From a virus: DNA of 26,130 nucleotides. A model generated the notes under the pieces. That model was given only the letters and a program-made list of their open reading frames with translations, was not told the DNA's origin and did no database searches. Below are positions 15,116-20,077 of this stretch, in pieces. Both the position numbers and the translations under genes were made by a program. The stretch lies in the IMG/VR virus record IMGVR_UViG_3300030101_001144, positions 1-26,130 of that record. One strand, written 5' to 3'. Each line of letters starts with the position of its first letter. Within the stretch, counting starts at the first letter, position 1.

Positions 15116-15316
15116 ATGAAAATACCACAACAACAAAGTTTATTATTAAACAAACCAAATGAAGCATCGCCTGAAGAGTTTTTAAAGTGGCAAGAAACTG
15201 AACTAAACTGGTGGGCAGATAGACAAATGAATATTGTAGCTATTATGTCTGTAGTACAAGTTGTAGTCTTTGGTTTAATGTTATTAGTTTTTTATGTAAA
15301 TTCAAAGGCATTCTAA
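15116..15316 (+). CDS. Small single-pass membrane protein, 66 aa
   Basis: A 66-aa protein with a polar, Trp-rich N-terminal half (FLKWQETELNWWADRQ, residues 23-37) and one strong membrane segment at residues about 39-60 (NIVAIMSVVQVVVFGLMLLV), ending with a short tail. Starting one base after the NIDO protein's stop and overlapping the IscU start by one base (TAATG), it is embedded in the same translational chain. The layout (cytoplasmic amphipathic helix, C-terminal anchor) could suit an antiholin, a small spanin component or a partner of the exported proteins. No lipobox or second segment is seen, and I do not recognise the family. Confidence 0.6.
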   Translation: MKIPQQQSLLLNKPNEASPEEFLKWQETELNWWADRQMNIVAIMSVVQVVVFGLMLLVFYVNSKAF

Positions 15317-15729
15317 TGGCATACTCAAATAAAGTTGTAGATAGATTTGAAGGAGTTTTAAATAACCCAGAAAAATATTCAGTGGGTAGATTTGATCCTA
15401 AAGATTTAGATGTAGGTACTGGTATGGTTGGTGCACCTGCATGTGGTGATGTAATGAAGTTACAAATTAAATGTAAGTTGCAAGGCAACAGACATATTAT
15501 TGATGATGTTAAGTTTAAAACTTATGGCTGTGGGTCAGCAATAGCATCAAGCACAATGTTTGTTGATATGTTAAAGGGCAAAACAATTGAAGAAGCTTGT
15601 GAAATAAAAGATAAAGACATAGCTGAAGCTTTGGAGTTACCACCTATAAAATTACATTGTAGTGTGTTAGCAGAAGATAGTATAAAAAAAGCCATAAGTG
15701 ATTGGCAGGATAAACAGAACGGAGAATAA
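15316..15729 (+). CDS. iscU: IscU-type iron-sulfur cluster assembly scaffold
   Basis: A 137-aa protein very close in layout to bacterial IscU (about 128 aa). All functional positions are present: Cys43 and Asp45 in GMVGAPACGDVMKLQIK, Cys72 in YGCGSAIASS, and His114-Cys115 in KLHCSVLAED. The loop ELPPIK (107-112) corresponds to the LPPVK site that the HscA chaperone binds in E. coli IscU. IscU builds [2Fe-2S] and [4Fe-4S] clusters on these cysteines with sulfur from IscS, then passes them to client proteins. No IscS, HscA, HscB or ferredoxin is encoded in the window, so host partners would be needed. It lies late in the structural/membrane operon, not beside the nuclease that might use a cluster. 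The identification is secure; its purpose in infection is unknown. Confidence 0.95.
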   Translation: MAYSNKVVDRFEGVLNNPEKYSVGRFDPKDLDVGTGMVGAPACGDVMKLQIKCKLQGNRHIIDDVKFKTYGCGSAIASSTMFVDMLKGKTIEEACEIKDKDIAEALELPPIKLHCSVLAEDSIKKAISDWQDKQNGE

Positions 15730-15730
15730 T

Positions 15731-16087
15731 ATGGATTGGTTACAAAATAAAACAACACAGTTTATTGCATTGATGGGTATCATTGGAACTCTTGCAGGGT
15801 TTGGATACACAGGTGCAACCTACGTGAATAGAATAGAGAACTTAGAATCAAAAGCTCAACAAGCTAAAGAAACTGAGCAAGGAGTTGATGAGGTTATCAA
15901 CAGGATTGAAGCATTAGAAACATCAGTAGAATATATTAATAAAACTATTGATGAGACTATCTTGCTTAAGATTAATAATCTTGAGTCTATCAAGTCCGAT
16001 ATATCAGGTATGAAAGCTGATATCGAAAGTGTTAAGACTGATATAAAAATATTTAAAGAAGAGAATAAGAATCCTTTAGCAGGATAA
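15731..16087 (+). CDS. Membrane-anchored coiled-coil protein, 118 aa
   Basis: I start this gene at the ATG at 15731, which has GGAG about six bases upstream; an earlier in-frame ATG (15698) would lie inside iscU. The 118-aa product has a hydrophobic segment at residues about 10-32 (QFIALMGIIGTLAGFGYTGA) followed by an 80-residue coiled coil with repeated Ile/Leu at heptad spacing (VINRIEALETSVEYINKTI, then INNLESIKSDISGMKADI). The same anchor-plus-coil plan is seen in the 81-aa protein at 1124-1369. Such proteins are frequent near phage lysis genes and may be inner-membrane spanin-like or tail-assembly factors, but no family is recognised. It is the last gene of the rightward arm, and its stop directly abuts the stop of the oppositely oriented gene. 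Confidence 0.65.
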   Translation: MDWLQNKTTQFIALMGIIGTLAGFGYTGATYVNRIENLESKAQQAKETEQGVDEVINRIEALETSVEYINKTIDETILLKINNLESIKSDISGMKADIESVKTDIKIFKEENKNPLAG

Positions 16088-16306
16088 TTACTTTAAAACA
16101 TTTAACTCTCTTTGAAAGAAGTTATGTAAGTCTCCCATCTTATGCTTACCATTCCGGAGGATAGTTTTAATAATATCTCTCTCATCTGGAGGGAATATTT
16201 CATTAACCATATCCTCTGGTAGCATACTAAACTCTGTAACTATATCATTGTTGCGTGTAAGAAGCACTTTAAAACTTACCAAGTTTGCTTCATTCTTATT
16301 AACCAT
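16088..16306 (-). CDS. Small hypothetical protein downstream of nrdB, 72 aa
   Basis: The start is placed at the ATG at 16306, where GGAG sits six bases upstream inside the end of nrdB; seven more residues upstream (from 16327) are open but lack a ribosome site. The 72-aa product has mixed charge and no membrane segment. The phrases EFSMLPEDMVNEIFPPDERD and IIKTILRNGKHKMGDLHNFF suggest a small alpha-helical fold. It overlaps the nrdB stop by eight bases and is the last gene of the leftward arm. Co-transcription with nrdA and nrdB makes a link to nucleotide metabolism possible, but nothing in the sequence shows it. Confidence 0.6.
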   Translation of the reverse strand: MVNKNEANLVSFKVLLTRNNDIVTEFSMLPEDMVNEIFPPDERDIIKTILRNGKHKMGDLHNFFQRELNVLK

Positions 16307-17282
16307 TCTCTTTCTCCAAGTTTGCAAAGGTTACTTTATCTTGTCTACCACGTAGTCCTGCTTTCATATAAGAAGTAGCACGACCTTCAAAGAAGTTTTG
16401 ATGTTCAACACCCATTACTTCATCTAACCATTCCAAAGGATTTTCTCTCTGGTCATAGTTTGTTTTTAATCCCAATTGTAATAATCTTCTGTCAGCTATG
16501 TATCTATTGTAAGCATACATATCTTTCTTGGTAAGACCTTCAAGGTCTCCCATATCAAACACTAAGTCTAAGAACTTATCTTCTAGTTCCACCATTTGTC
16601 TACAGATTTGATATATTTCTTTTTTGAAATCATCAGTCCATATCTCTATGTTCTCTTGGATAAACTCTCTAAATAGTTTAGTCATAGCTTCAACGTGCAT
16701 AGACTCATCACGGATAGAGTAAGTAACTATCTGTCCCATACCTTTCATACGTCCAAAGCGTGGGAAGTTTAACAATATTGCAAAGCTACTAAACAGCTGT
16801 AGACCCTCAGTAAATGCTGAATAGACTGCTAAAGTTTTTGCAATACTTTTCTTATCAGACTTAGTTGTCTTAATATTGTGAACATAATCATGTTTATCTG
16901 CCATCTCTTCGTACTCTGCAAAAGCTTTGTACTCTATCTCAGGCATACCAACTGTATCAAGTAATAAACTGTAAGCGTGTTGATGAATAGATTCCATGTT
17001 AGCAAACGAACCCATCATCATTCTAGCTTCAGGCTTTCTAAAGATACGCATATATCTATCAACGTATCCTGCACCAACATCTACATCTGATTGAGTAAAC
17101 AGTCTAAAGATTTGTGTAAGTAAGTTCTTTTCTTTTACAGATAACTCTTGCCAATCTTTTACATCTGTATGTAGTGGCACTGATTCTGGCATCCAATGCA
17201 TTTGATTTTGTAAGACATAGTAGTCAAACATCCAAGGGTTGTCGAATGGTTTGTAATAATCTCTTGTATCTAATAAGCTCAT
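16299..17282 (-). CDS. nrdB: Ribonucleoside-diphosphate reductase small subunit (class Ia, tyrosyl radical)
   Basis: A 327-aa beta subunit that holds the di-iron/tyrosyl-radical cofactor needed by NrdA to reduce ribonucleotides. Landmarks: first-helix Asp in FTQSDVDVG (66 or 68), Glu97 and His100 in MESIHQHAY, radical Tyr104 at the exact spacing of E. coli Tyr122, Glu159 in AFTEGLQLF, and Glu193 and His196 in IRDESMH. All metal ligands and the radical Tyr are present, so it is not one of the Tyr-lacking variants. The C-terminal part includes NFFEGRATSYMKAG, a phrase common near the end of bacterial NrdB. Its ATG overlaps the upstream 104-aa gene's stop (ATGA). nrdA lies 0.6 kb upstream, separated by three small genes. 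It supplies dNTPs for rapid phage replication. Confidence 0.95.
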   Translation of the reverse strand: MSLLDTRDYYKPFDNPWMFDYYVLQNQMHWMPESVPLHTDVKDWQELSVKEKNLLTQIFRLFTQSDVDVGAGYVDRYMRIFRKPEARMMMGSFANMESIHQHAYSLLLDTVGMPEIEYKAFAEYEEMADKHDYVHNIKTTKSDKKSIAKTLAVYSAFTEGLQLFSSFAILLNFPRFGRMKGMGQIVTYSIRDESMHVEAMTKLFREFIQENIEIWTDDFKKEIYQICRQMVELEDKFLDLVFDMGDLEGLTKKDMYAYNRYIADRRLLQLGLKTNYDQRENPLEWLDEVMGVEHQNFFEGRATSYMKAGLRGRQDKVTFANLEKENG

Positions 17283-17305
17283 GTTTTTTCCTTGTTAAAT
17301 TTTTT
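17278..17305 (-). repeat. 28-bp gene-junction repeat, copy A (104-aa gene / nrdB)
   Basis: The stretch spanning the end of the 104-aa gene, its ribosome site for nrdB and the nrdB ATG matches 17589-17616 at 25 of 28 positions. On the coding strand it contains AAATTTAACAAGGA followed by the start ATGAG. Confidence 0.8.
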
Positions 17306-17593
17306 TAATAATTTTTCGATAGAATCTATCTCTATCTTTAGTGTATTTAGTTCTTTTTTTCTGTTGTGTAGCTCTAGTTTTTTATCATAATGTTTTTTTA
17401 AATCTTGATAACGTTTTTCATAGTCCGGTGGTTTCCAATCTGGAGACCTTAACTGTTCTTCACTTACCATGCCATAGTGAGCTTTACCATAATCATCTAT
17501 TGATTTTACAATGTACATTCCTTCTGAAAAATAAACATGAGATGCACCATCTTCTGCGTAGCCTTCAAAATGTGATTTCATAAAACCACTCAT
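17279..17593 (-). CDS. Hypothetical protein between nrdA and nrdB, 104 aa, C-terminal coiled coil
   Basis: The ATG at 17593 has GGAG six bases upstream. The 104-aa product has an N-terminal globular part with many aromatics (SHVYFSEGMYIVKSIDDYG) and a C-terminal Lys/Glu/Leu-rich helix (residues 58-104) with heptad spacing. It ends KKFNKEKT, nearly the same as the end of the preceding 59-aa gene (KKFNKENT), and the DNA around both junctions is repeated. Its stop overlaps the nrdB start (ATGA), and its own start overlaps the previous stop in the same way. I do not recognise a family. Position inside the RNR operon suggests, but does not prove, a role in nucleotide reduction. Confidence 0.65.
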   Translation of the reverse strand: MSGFMKSHFEGYAEDGASHVYFSEGMYIVKSIDDYGKAHYGMVSEEQLRSPDWKPPDYEKRYQDLKKHYDKKLELHNRKKELNTLKIEIDSIEKLLKKFNKEKT

Positions 17594-17616
17594 GTGTTCT
17601 CCTTGTTAAATTTCTT
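17589..17616 (-). repeat. 28-bp gene-junction repeat, copy B (59-aa gene / 104-aa gene)
   Basis: This second copy of the junction element spans the end of the 59-aa gene, the GGAG ribosome site and the ATGAG start of the 104-aa gene. Three mismatches separate it from copy A. It has the better Shine-Dalgarno (AAGGAG versus AAGGAA in copy A). Confidence 0.8.
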
Positions 17617-17769
17617 AACTAAATATTTAAAATTTTCAATTACGTATCCTGCATAATCTTTTGTTTTTGCGAATGGATTATTATTTTCATCACAATAATC
17701 TAACCACATCCTACTTGTAAAGCCAGAAAATTTCTGACTAAATACATTTGTAAATTCTTCTTGTTTCAT
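17590..17769 (-). CDS. Small hypothetical protein between nrdA and nrdB, 59 aa
   Basis: A 59-aa frame from ATG 17769 to TGA 17590-17592, found by reading the gap between annotated-size genes. The upstream AGGATTAAT gives a ribosome site, and the stop overlaps the next ATG (ATGA) like its neighbours. The product begins MKQEEFTNVFSQKFSGFTSR, continues with RMWLDYCDENNNPF and ends VKKFNKENT. It is mixed-charge, soluble and rich in Phe/Tyr, with no motif that I recognise. Its place in an otherwise gapless operon, its coupled start and stop, and normal codon use argue that it is a real gene. Confidence 0.6.
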   Translation of the reverse strand: MKQEEFTNVFSQKFSGFTSRMWLDYCDENNNPFAKTKDYAGYVIENFKYLVKKFNKENT

Positions 17770-17770
17770 A

Positions 17771-17914
17771 TTAATCCTTTGGTAAATATACTATTACAAA
17801 AGAGTTACATTTGGGGCAACTTAAATTAGTTTCCATAATGTATTCATCGTTTTCATCTTCTATATCGTGATCTCCACCCCATATTAATTCTGTTCCACAA
17901 TGCCAACAATCCAT
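17771..17914 (-). CDS. Mini zinc-ribbon protein directly after nrdA, 47 aa
   Basis: A 47-aa frame from ATG 17914 to TAA 17771-17773. It opens MDCWHCGTELIWGGDHDIED and has a second knuckle NLSCPKCNSFVIVYLP, giving two CxxC pairs (Cys3/Cys6 and Cys33/Cys36) that should bind one zinc as a rubredoxin-type ribbon. The start is one base after the nrdA stop, with GAGGGA of the nrdA end as ribosome site. I have seen similar tiny CxHC...CPxC proteins in marine phages without known function. Placement between nrdA and nrdB invites the idea of a redox or regulatory partner of the reductase (a slot where other phages may keep a glutaredoxin), but the CxxC pairs look like zinc ligands rather than a thioredoxin-type active site. 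Confidence 0.7.
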   Translation of the reverse strand: MDCWHCGTELIWGGDHDIEDENDEYIMETNLSCPKCNSFVIVYLPKD

Positions 17915-17915
17915 A

Positions 17916-19811
17916 CTATCCCTCACAAGCAATACATTCAGCATCGTCTAACTTAATACGCTGAACTTTGGTGTTTACATTTTCTACACTACGAGCAGCA
18001 TTAGACCTAAAGTAGTATAAAGATTTAAGTTTGTTCATACCATACCAGTGTACATCATTGACGTACTGCATGTATTCATCATGTACTTCCTGTGGCTCTG
18101 TAGCTTTAGGAAGTGTAAAGAATAAATTAACTGACTGTGCTTGACAAATAAACTCTTGTCGTTTAGATGCATGTTCTATAATCCATATCTGATCTATTTC
18201 ATTAGCAGTTTTAAACACTTCTTTTTCTTCATCTGTTAGTATATCAAGATGTTGTACAGAGCCATCTTTACCTGCAATGTCTTTCCATATATCATTTAAC
18301 TCAGCCTTCTTTAATCCTTTTTCTTGTAATACCTCTTCAAGATATTTATTTTTTACTTGGAATGATCCGGATAAAGTTTTGTGCGTATAAGCATTAGCCC
18401 TGTATGGCTCAATCGAAGGAGATGTCCCACCACATATGATACTAGAAGAAGCGTTAGGAGCAACAGCGAGTAGATGAGCATTCCTACGACCACTACCACT
18501 GATATCAGGTGACTCACCACGTTCATCAGCAAGTCGTTCAGTTGCTCTAGTTGAATGTTTCTTAATGTGCTTAAACGCTTTGTAATTAAATCCCGTAGCG
18601 AATATACCTTCGAAAGGAATATTGTGTGCCTGTAAGTACGAATGGAATCCCATCGCCCCCAAACCCAACGACCTTTCTCGGTAAGCCGAGTACGCAGATT
18701 TAGTAAAGCCTTCTTTACCGGGCTTGATATGTTTTTGAAATCTTTTAAAGTTTGCATTATACTCTCCTAAGTTATCTGTGTCAACAGCGTTATCAATATA
18801 ATGTTGAAGAACGTTGTCAAGCATGGTAATTAAATCATCAATGAACAGAGGATTCTCACTCCAATCATCAAAGTATTCTAAGTTTACAGAAGACAAACAA
18901 CATACTGCTGTTCGTTCTTCGTTAGTAGGTAAAGTAATCTCAGAACAAAGATTGCTCTGTTTGATTTCTAATCCTAAATCTTTTTGTTCTTTGGGTAATG
19001 CTTCGTTACATGTATCTATATTAATCATGTATGGCTCACCTGTCTCTGCTCTTGCATTAATGATCTGCCACCACAAGTCTCTAGCATTTACAATCTTTGT
19101 AGGTTCGTTAGTCTTAGGGTCAATCAATCTAAAGTCTGCATCGTCTTCAACAGCTTTGAGAAAATCATTAGTGATGTTTATACCATTGTGAAGATTAAGA
19201 TTCTTACGATTAATATCTCCACCAGATTCTTTACGCATGTTAATAAACTCTTCTATCTCCGGATGAGATATATCCATGTAAGCAGCATAAGAACCACGTC
19301 TAGTCGTGCCTTGATTGAAGGCTAACATTTGAGAATCTACTACATGGATGAAAGGGATTGAACCAGTAGACTTGCTACCGTGAGTAGTAGAAATACCATT
19401 ACTACGAATATCTCCCCAAAATCCACCAATACCTCCACCCGAACTTGCCAACCAAATATTTTCGTCATAGTGAGCAGATAAACCATCCCTGCTATCAGGT
19501 ACATAATTGAGAAAACAGCTAATAGGAAGACCACGACTTGTTCCCCCGTTACTAAGTATAGGAGTGCTAAACATGAACCAACAACTGGAACTGTAGTGAT
19601 AAAGTCTCTGAGCCAATTCAAAATCTGTGTGACCTTTGTAAGTGGCTGCGAAGACTGATGCTCTGGCAAATGCTTCTTGTGCATGTGTTTCATTCTCCCA
19701 TAAGTATCTATCCTTGAGAGTATCAAGGCTAAACTTATCTAAATTTTTTTCATTACTATAATTTATTTTGATACCAAGGTATTCCTTGATACCGACTTTA
19801 TCTTCTACCAT
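17916..19811 (-). CDS. nrdA: Ribonucleoside-diphosphate reductase large subunit (class Ia), no ATP cone
   Basis: A 631-aa catalytic subunit, about 130 residues shorter than E. coli NrdA (761). Active-site residues are all present: Cys99 (GLPISCF) and Cys304 (AVCCLSS) as the reducing pair, Asn287, Cys289 and Glu291 in QSNLCSEI as radical site, Tyr599 and Tyr600 in SLYYFR for radical transfer, and the C-terminal shuttle pair Cys626/Cys629 (CIACEG). The missing length is mostly N-terminal: the about 90-residue ATP-cone domain that shuts the enzyme down with dATP is absent, so overall allosteric inhibition should be lost while substrate-specificity control may remain. It overlaps the DUF3310 gene by one base and starts an nrdA-nrdB operon with three small genes between. 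It would recycle host ribonucleotides to dNTPs. Confidence 0.95.
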   Translation of the reverse strand: MVEDKVGIKEYLGIKINYSNEKNLDKFSLDTLKDRYLWENETHAQEAFARASVFAATYKGHTDFELAQRLYHYSSSCWFMFSTPILSNGGTSRGLPISCFLNYVPDSRDGLSAHYDENIWLASSGGGIGGFWGDIRSNGISTTHGSKSTGSIPFIHVVDSQMLAFNQGTTRRGSYAAYMDISHPEIEEFINMRKESGGDINRKNLNLHNGINITNDFLKAVEDDADFRLIDPKTNEPTKIVNARDLWWQIINARAETGEPYMINIDTCNEALPKEQKDLGLEIKQSNLCSEITLPTNEERTAVCCLSSVNLEYFDDWSENPLFIDDLITMLDNVLQHYIDNAVDTDNLGEYNANFKRFQKHIKPGKEGFTKSAYSAYRERSLGLGAMGFHSYLQAHNIPFEGIFATGFNYKAFKHIKKHSTRATERLADERGESPDISGSGRRNAHLLAVAPNASSSIICGGTSPSIEPYRANAYTHKTLSGSFQVKNKYLEEVLQEKGLKKAELNDIWKDIAGKDGSVQHLDILTDEEKEVFKTANEIDQIWIIEHASKRQEFICQAQSVNLFFTLPKATEPQEVHDEYMQYVNDVHWYGMNKLKSLYYFRSNAARSVENVNTKVQRIKLDDAECIACEG

Positions 19812-20077
19812 TATGAGTTCTCTGTATCGTGTACGTTAAGCATTATTATACCATAATGTAAGATTTTTAGCAAGTCTTTTCTGTTCTTTCCATCTTTATT
19901 TCCATATCGTTTTGCATACTTCATAATGTTACCTAAAGCAAAACCTTCTCCATGTCCAGAGTCAATGATAATATCTGTAGCTTGATATTTATCTGAAGCA
20001 TAATGCTCACCATATGTCTCATCAATATAAGACTGTAGTTCTTGTATTAATCGTCCTTCATTAAATTTATAATTCAT
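19811..20077 (-). CDS. DUF3310 protein (T7 gp1.7 nucleotide-kinase-like)
   Basis: An 88-aa protein with the core pattern of DUF3310: YQATDIIIDSGHGEGFALGN followed by IMKYAKRYGNKDGKNRKDLL and then KILHYGIIML, giving the usual F-LGN-IKY--R-G--K---DL-KA--YL arrangement at residues 47-80. DUF3310 proteins are widespread in phages; the T7 relative gp1.7 is reported to phosphorylate dGMP and dTMP. Its position just upstream of nrdA, overlapping by one base, fits a nucleotide-supply role. The kinase activity is only by analogy: this protein is short and has no classical Walker A motif. Confidence 0.8.
   Translation of the reverse strand: MNYKFNEGRLIQELQSYIDETYGEHYASDKYQATDIIIDSGHGEGFALGNIMKYAKRYGNKDGKNRKDLLKILHYGIIMLNVHDTENS

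Follow-up and report, generated by a model that had tools for sequence, protein, structure and literature searches.

The window, that is, the whole stretch of 26,130 nucleotides that was analysed, was an identical stretch of the IMG/VR contig IMGVR_UViG_3300030372_000654 (a 50.8-kb virus record). Its class I RNR genes were encoded on the minus strand together with three small genes, in the order nrdA, zr47, p59, p104, nrdB, with 1-nt gaps or 4-nt overlaps throughout:

17916..19811, minus strand: nrdA, class I RNR large subunit, 631 aa (Pfam PF02867 and PF00317, PHROG 84; NCBIfam NF006577, exceeding its cut-off)
17771..17914, minus strand: zr47, predicted acidic four-cysteine zinc ribbon, 47 aa, widespread in marine phages
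17590..17769, minus strand: p59, two-helix protein (model), 59 aa, family nearly restricted to the nrdA-nrdB border
17589..17613, minus strand: 25-nt repeat, copy 1, covering the p59 end, a ribosome site and the p104 start
17279..17593, minus strand: p104, 104 aa, seen in its own contig only, a recent insert
17278..17302, minus strand: 25-nt repeat, copy 2, covering the p104 end, a ribosome site and the nrdB start
16299..17282, minus strand: nrdB, class I RNR small subunit, 327 aa (Pfam PF00268, PHROG 86; NCBIfam NF007186, exceeding its cut-off)
16088..16327, minus strand: p79, a small gene with a TTG start that overlaps the nrdB end (phrog_27180, function not assigned there)

An earlier note on this DNA had described a 47-aa protein with two CxxC pairs after nrdA, a 59-aa gene, and a three-gene insert (these two plus the 104-aa gene) separating nrdA from nrdB; all were found, the first two as zr47 (17914-17771, minus strand) and p59 (17769-17590, minus strand). 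The near-touching or overlapping neighbours were equally evident: one nucleotide separated the nrdA stop from the zr47 start and the zr47 stop from the p59 start, and 4-nt ATGA overlaps were present at p59/p104 and p104/nrdB. The ribosome sites it had noticed had cores of 4 nt for zr47 and 5 nt for p59 (6 for p104 and 5 for nrdB); among 425 other minus-strand ATGs, cores of at least 4 and at least 5 nt preceded 14% and 5%, respectively. An alternative in-frame ATG lay at 17944, ten codons 5' of the zr47 start, and the zr47 relatives begin M-x-C-W, unlike a protein started there. A scan over 16000-20000 gave no terminators in 17279-17914; its promoter-like matches were not taken as evidence. 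The nearest phage isolate (blastn) was Pelagibacter phage HTVC115P, in which nrdA directly overlaps nrdB with no gene between. No match to PF00462 or PF00085, the glutaredoxin and thioredoxin families, was obtained anywhere in the 50.8-kb record, so this RNR needs an outside reductant. Two further observations were made on the surroundings of the RNR genes: NrdB (16299-17282, minus strand) had a sub-cut-off match to the glutaredoxin-NrdB fusion model NF009398 (E 1.7e-96), and a NifU/IscU-like Fe-S scaffold gene (15316-15729, plus strand; PF01592 E 2e-38; phrog_8429) lay near and facing the RNR operon.

Both zr47 and p59 are real genes, with purifying selection acting on their protein sequences. 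Pairwise Nei-Gojobori dN/dS was 0.18 for zr47 (79 distinct sequences) and 0.24 for p59 (88 distinct sequences); for comparison, nrdB, nrdA and the downstream p79 gave 0.056, 0.10 and 0.17, respectively. That neither frame is translated is scarcely credible: the frames are short, but selection acts at the protein level, ribosome sites precede both frames, and homologs of zr47 occur in other gene settings.

The content of the nrdA-nrdB border was surveyed in relatives chosen by NrdB (the best 80 of at least 599, 79 of them usable; L191 was left out, its nrdA lying outside the contig). Of the 79 junctions, 33 contained both zr47 and p59, 18 only the former of the two, 9 only the latter, and 19 neither one, 4 of these being empty; p59 was thus absent from 37 junctions and zr47 from 28. 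Further cargo comprised the p65 family (phrog_1811; 142 phage records, for the most part of cyanophages, carry it too), an Endonuclease VII-type nuclease, a 2OG-Fe(II) oxygenase, cytochrome c with a membrane protein next to it, lysine/arginine-rich proteins and, according to our reading of its motifs, a putative cytosine methyltransferase. Identical NrdB proteins were accompanied by unlike cargo (e.g. zr47 in L187, an empty border in L189). Since the border takes many other genes and may be empty, the retention of small genes in a gapless operon, which the earlier note had read as a sign of RNR function, is weak evidence. Endonuclease VII-type (HNH-like) genes lay between nrdA and nrdB in L029, L109, L147, L394, L410 and L499, and are a possible driver of cargo exchange.

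The cargo genes differed in stability along the NrdB tree. The fewest changes needed, which are approximate counts because the tree was a quick one with 29 of its 66 inner branches open, were 5 for p59 (mean of 200 shuffles, 26), 15 for zr47 (23), 12 for p65 (21), 6 for p79 (8; 75 of 79 loci scored) and 1 for the upstream DUF3310 gene (4; 60 of 79 loci scored). By these counts, p59 behaves in the manner of a backbone gene and zr47 in that of moving cargo. Pairs informative on a dependence between zr47 and p59 were few on the NrdB tree.

The cysteines of zr47 (C3xxC6 and C33xxC36) were invariant in 25 aligned members, and its AlphaFold2 model showed three strands (pLDDT 94.3). The description of zr47 as a mini zinc ribbon was therefore borne out by the invariant cysteines and, as far as a model can tell, by a ribbon fold, but not by any curated profile above cut-off (best Pfam match zf-C2HE, 19.9 bits vs. 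a cut-off of 30.1); against PDB sequences, the zr47 profile reached a best E of only 0.075. Its members are acidic, with a net charge that averages -7.3 across residues 1-47 (72 distinct sequences); the window protein has a net charge of -9 and no basic stretch.

Zr47 was found in 23 phage records, including T4-like cyanophages, Pelagibacter phage HTVC027P and phage HMO-2011. Among its best 80 viral loci, an RNR gene lay within 1.5 kb in 24 and was absent in 56 (window NrdA and NrdB as queries, E 1e-3, flanks of up to 3 kb, so that some RNR genes may be hidden by distance or contig ends). Neither nrdA nor nrdB accompanied zr47 in the stretch examined of nine bacterial-genome contigs, and in five annotated phage loci its neighbours were helicase, DNA polymerase, sliding clamp, recombinase or hypothetical genes, with RNR genes in none. 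This occurrence, mostly away from RNR, marks zr47 as a general marine-phage protein: it is a widespread, predicted zinc ribbon and a mere visitor to the nrdA-nrdB slot. The redox renewal proposed in the earlier note is unlikely for zr47, given the confident zinc-ribbon-like model and its absence from 28 of the 79 junctions, and Pfam scans gave no thioredoxin-type family in zr47 or p59. We infer a structural zinc ribbon, predicted to bind a protein partner; such an acidic Zn(Cys)4 ribbon would most likely partner a host or replication protein rather than serve RNR as redox partner.

One specific link to RNR was considered, namely that zr47, as a pared-down relative or a decoy of the RNR-gene repressor NrdR, lifts RNR-gene repression. 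The top structural matches of zr47 were NrdR zinc ribbons (VIA Z 5.6-6.2 over 44 residues, next 4.7; by the search tool's own guidance, a Z below 8 may reflect only a common arrangement), and the NrdR zinc-ribbon domain has the four-cysteine fold, the C3xxC6 spacing and a second CxxC pair near 31-36 in common with zr47. However, the Foldseek E was 0.26 or worse, hhalign against one E. coli NrdR sequence detected no profile similarity (probability 1.5, four columns), and the NrdR model TIGR00244 had no match in the record. Zr47 stops at 47 aa with no ATP-cone after the ribbon, lacks the basic stretch that E. coli NrdR has (RRRR), and most of its loci are not next to RNR genes. Kinship with NrdR was set aside as a structural lead for which the comparison with this one sequence gave no support, and a role as relative or decoy of NrdR is highly improbable.

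The relatives of zr47 in four RefSeq phage records (H47, H50, H56 and H62) are named “protease”, as is PHROG 2816. The match of zr47 to this PHROG was weak and partial (E 7e-4, residues 31-46), and a protein of only 47 aa with a zinc-ribbon-like model and no protease features in any scan differs from what the label implies. The naming of zr47 relatives as proteases in reference phage genomes is unsupported by the evidence here.

For p104, a scan of viral contigs returned its own contig only, and phage records gave only partial matches with E 0.2 or worse. A near-twin locus (L002) had the order zr47-p59-nrdB, with p59 directly 5' of nrdB and no p104. Among the contigs searched, p104 is a recent private insert. 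It was flanked by the repeat AAATTTAACAAGGARAAMACATGAG, which contains a ribosome site and a start codon, occurs in two copies in the window, beyond chance expectation, and may be a recombination site for the insertion. An origin of p104 and p59 as duplicates, considered for their similar ends, was ruled out, the likeness being that of the 25-nt ribosome-site repeat.

Close relatives of p59 were confirmed in 210 stretches, of which the best 80 were kept. In the p59 family, 145 of 147 distinct junction sequences adjoined nrdA and/or nrdB: nrdA before and nrdB after in 137, nrdA only in 7, nrdB only in 1 and neither in 2 (the p59-anchored sets were selected for p59, and the NrdB-anchored set alone is free of that choice). 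The p59 stop lay within ATGA in 107 of 143 scorable sequences, and a divergent branch carried the motif FCRRMWLDHCDEN. Both exceptions without RNR belonged to one lineage; on one of these phage contigs (L448, 3932-4150, plus strand), with RNR genes absent nearby, the gene beside the p59-like gene appears, in our reading, to be terminase small subunit-like.

The family matched little that has been described. The window p59 had no match in PHROGs or NCBIfam and only DUF5332 in Pfam (E 0.06, below cut-off), the divergent members matched only phrog_5706 (E 0.024), and tblastn of p59 and two divergent members against 50,697 phage records gave no match. Its model, a two-helix hairpin, was of moderate confidence (pLDDT 73.5), and a fold search in BFVD with this only moderately confident model yielded 39 matches at E up to 10; with a best E of 3.4, no structural relative was found. 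No literature on p59 or its slot in marine phages was recognised from titles and abstract openings. P59 is a new family that occurs almost only beside RNR genes, and this near-confinement to the RNR border makes it a testable candidate RNR partner. The single cysteine of p59 is not conserved, which speaks against a redox role.

These data bear on the proposal of the earlier note that zr47, p59 and p104 belong together as accessories of RNR that act in its assembly, redox renewal or control. The tight operon with its ribosome sites and the need for an outside reductant would fit such a set. Nevertheless, p104 was seen here only, zr47 occurs mainly away from RNR, zr47 and p59 also occur apart, some junctions are empty and the p59 cysteine varies. 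A single functional set is very improbable. What survived in relatives is the conservation, under selection, of zr47 and p59, not that of the trio, and the suggested tie to RNR loses force for zr47 and p104 and is no more than plausible for p59.

On balance, it is probable that the nrdA-nrdB border in the marine phage clade of the window acts as a cargo slot, with zr47 as visitor, p104 as private insert, and p59 as stable resident and possible RNR partner. The slot would hold short cassettes, each with a ribosome site and usually an ATGA stop/start overlap at its end, that are gained, lost and exchanged, as the turnover among the junctions indicates. Exchange may proceed by recombination between the ends of nrdA and nrdB, which are conserved, and nrdB would thereby be translationally coupled to whatever gene precedes it. 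P104 would have entered such a slot recently, as its restriction to one of the contigs searched suggests, and p59 would have been kept beside nrdB across much of the sampled clade.

The role of p59 is where the readings diverge most. It may be an ordinary phage gene without any RNR role, its apparent link being inherited gene order plus in-place exchange via the nrd flanks; this is a serious contender, somewhat short of probable. All p59 loci beside RNR share one gene order and fall in one syntenic clade, so the linkage may be inheritance only; moreover, DUF3310 is equally stable, one lineage has the p59-like gene adjoining a terminase-like gene, and nearly half of the NrdB-anchored junctions lack p59. 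On the other hand, the slot-mates zr47 and p65 are widespread elsewhere and p59 almost never is, and p59 is much more stable than its slot neighbours. The best single guess at a function, itself less likely than not, makes p59 a candidate binder of NrdB or of the NrdA-NrdB complex that would tune assembly or activity, useful yet dispensable. A stronger version, in which p59 is a dedicated third RNR component, a helical hairpin coupled to NrdB translation that would dock on NrdB or NrdA-NrdB and tune assembly or activity, is doubtful; we know of no dedicated phage RNR partner of this kind.

Inserts at this border have precedents. In T4-type phages, the gene for MobE, a free-standing HNH endonuclease, is inserted between nrdA and nrdB and has a UAAUGA overlap; phage class I nrd genes sometimes have genes of unassigned function among them (PMC2988022, PMC3653736). 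The likeness to the slot in insert position and stop/start overlap is clear, and an HNH endonuclease is also present in some junctions of the window's clade; however, zr47, p59 and p104 showed no nuclease above cut-off in Pfam, PHROG and NCBIfam scans, and the slot accepts many unrelated cassettes. The nrdA-nrdB cargo slot is a variant of the already known T4-type kind.

In Autographiviridae pelagiphages, the border was likewise filled by unrelated small genes, the last of which overlapped nrdB by 4 nt in 8 of 8 viewed. Their proteins (e.g. Jormungand gp14) resemble p59 in length (50-60 aa), position before nrdB and the 4-nt overlap onto it. They are small, basic and hydrophobic-tailed, and unrelated to p59 by eye; the phage collection that holds those records gave no p59 match.

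Should p59 bind RNR, it would exemplify a new type of regulation of an enzyme central to dNTP provision in phages, among relatives of those that infect SAR11. Even if it does not, the locus illustrates how little the close spacing of operon genes says about a common function: the genes lodged between two essential partners are swapped, with the partners themselves almost unchanged, and this cargo includes cytochrome c and, putatively, cytosine methyltransferase genes.

Two minor observations were made on individual junctions. In L172 and L173, where p59 is missing, the zr47 C-terminus (KKFNKLNEK) resembles the p59 tail, which looks like a deletion joining the zr47 and p59 ends. In L180, L183, L184 and L185, a cytochrome c gene (PF00034, E 1.3e-7 in the one copy scanned) and a small membrane-protein gene lay inside the nrdA-nrdB pair.
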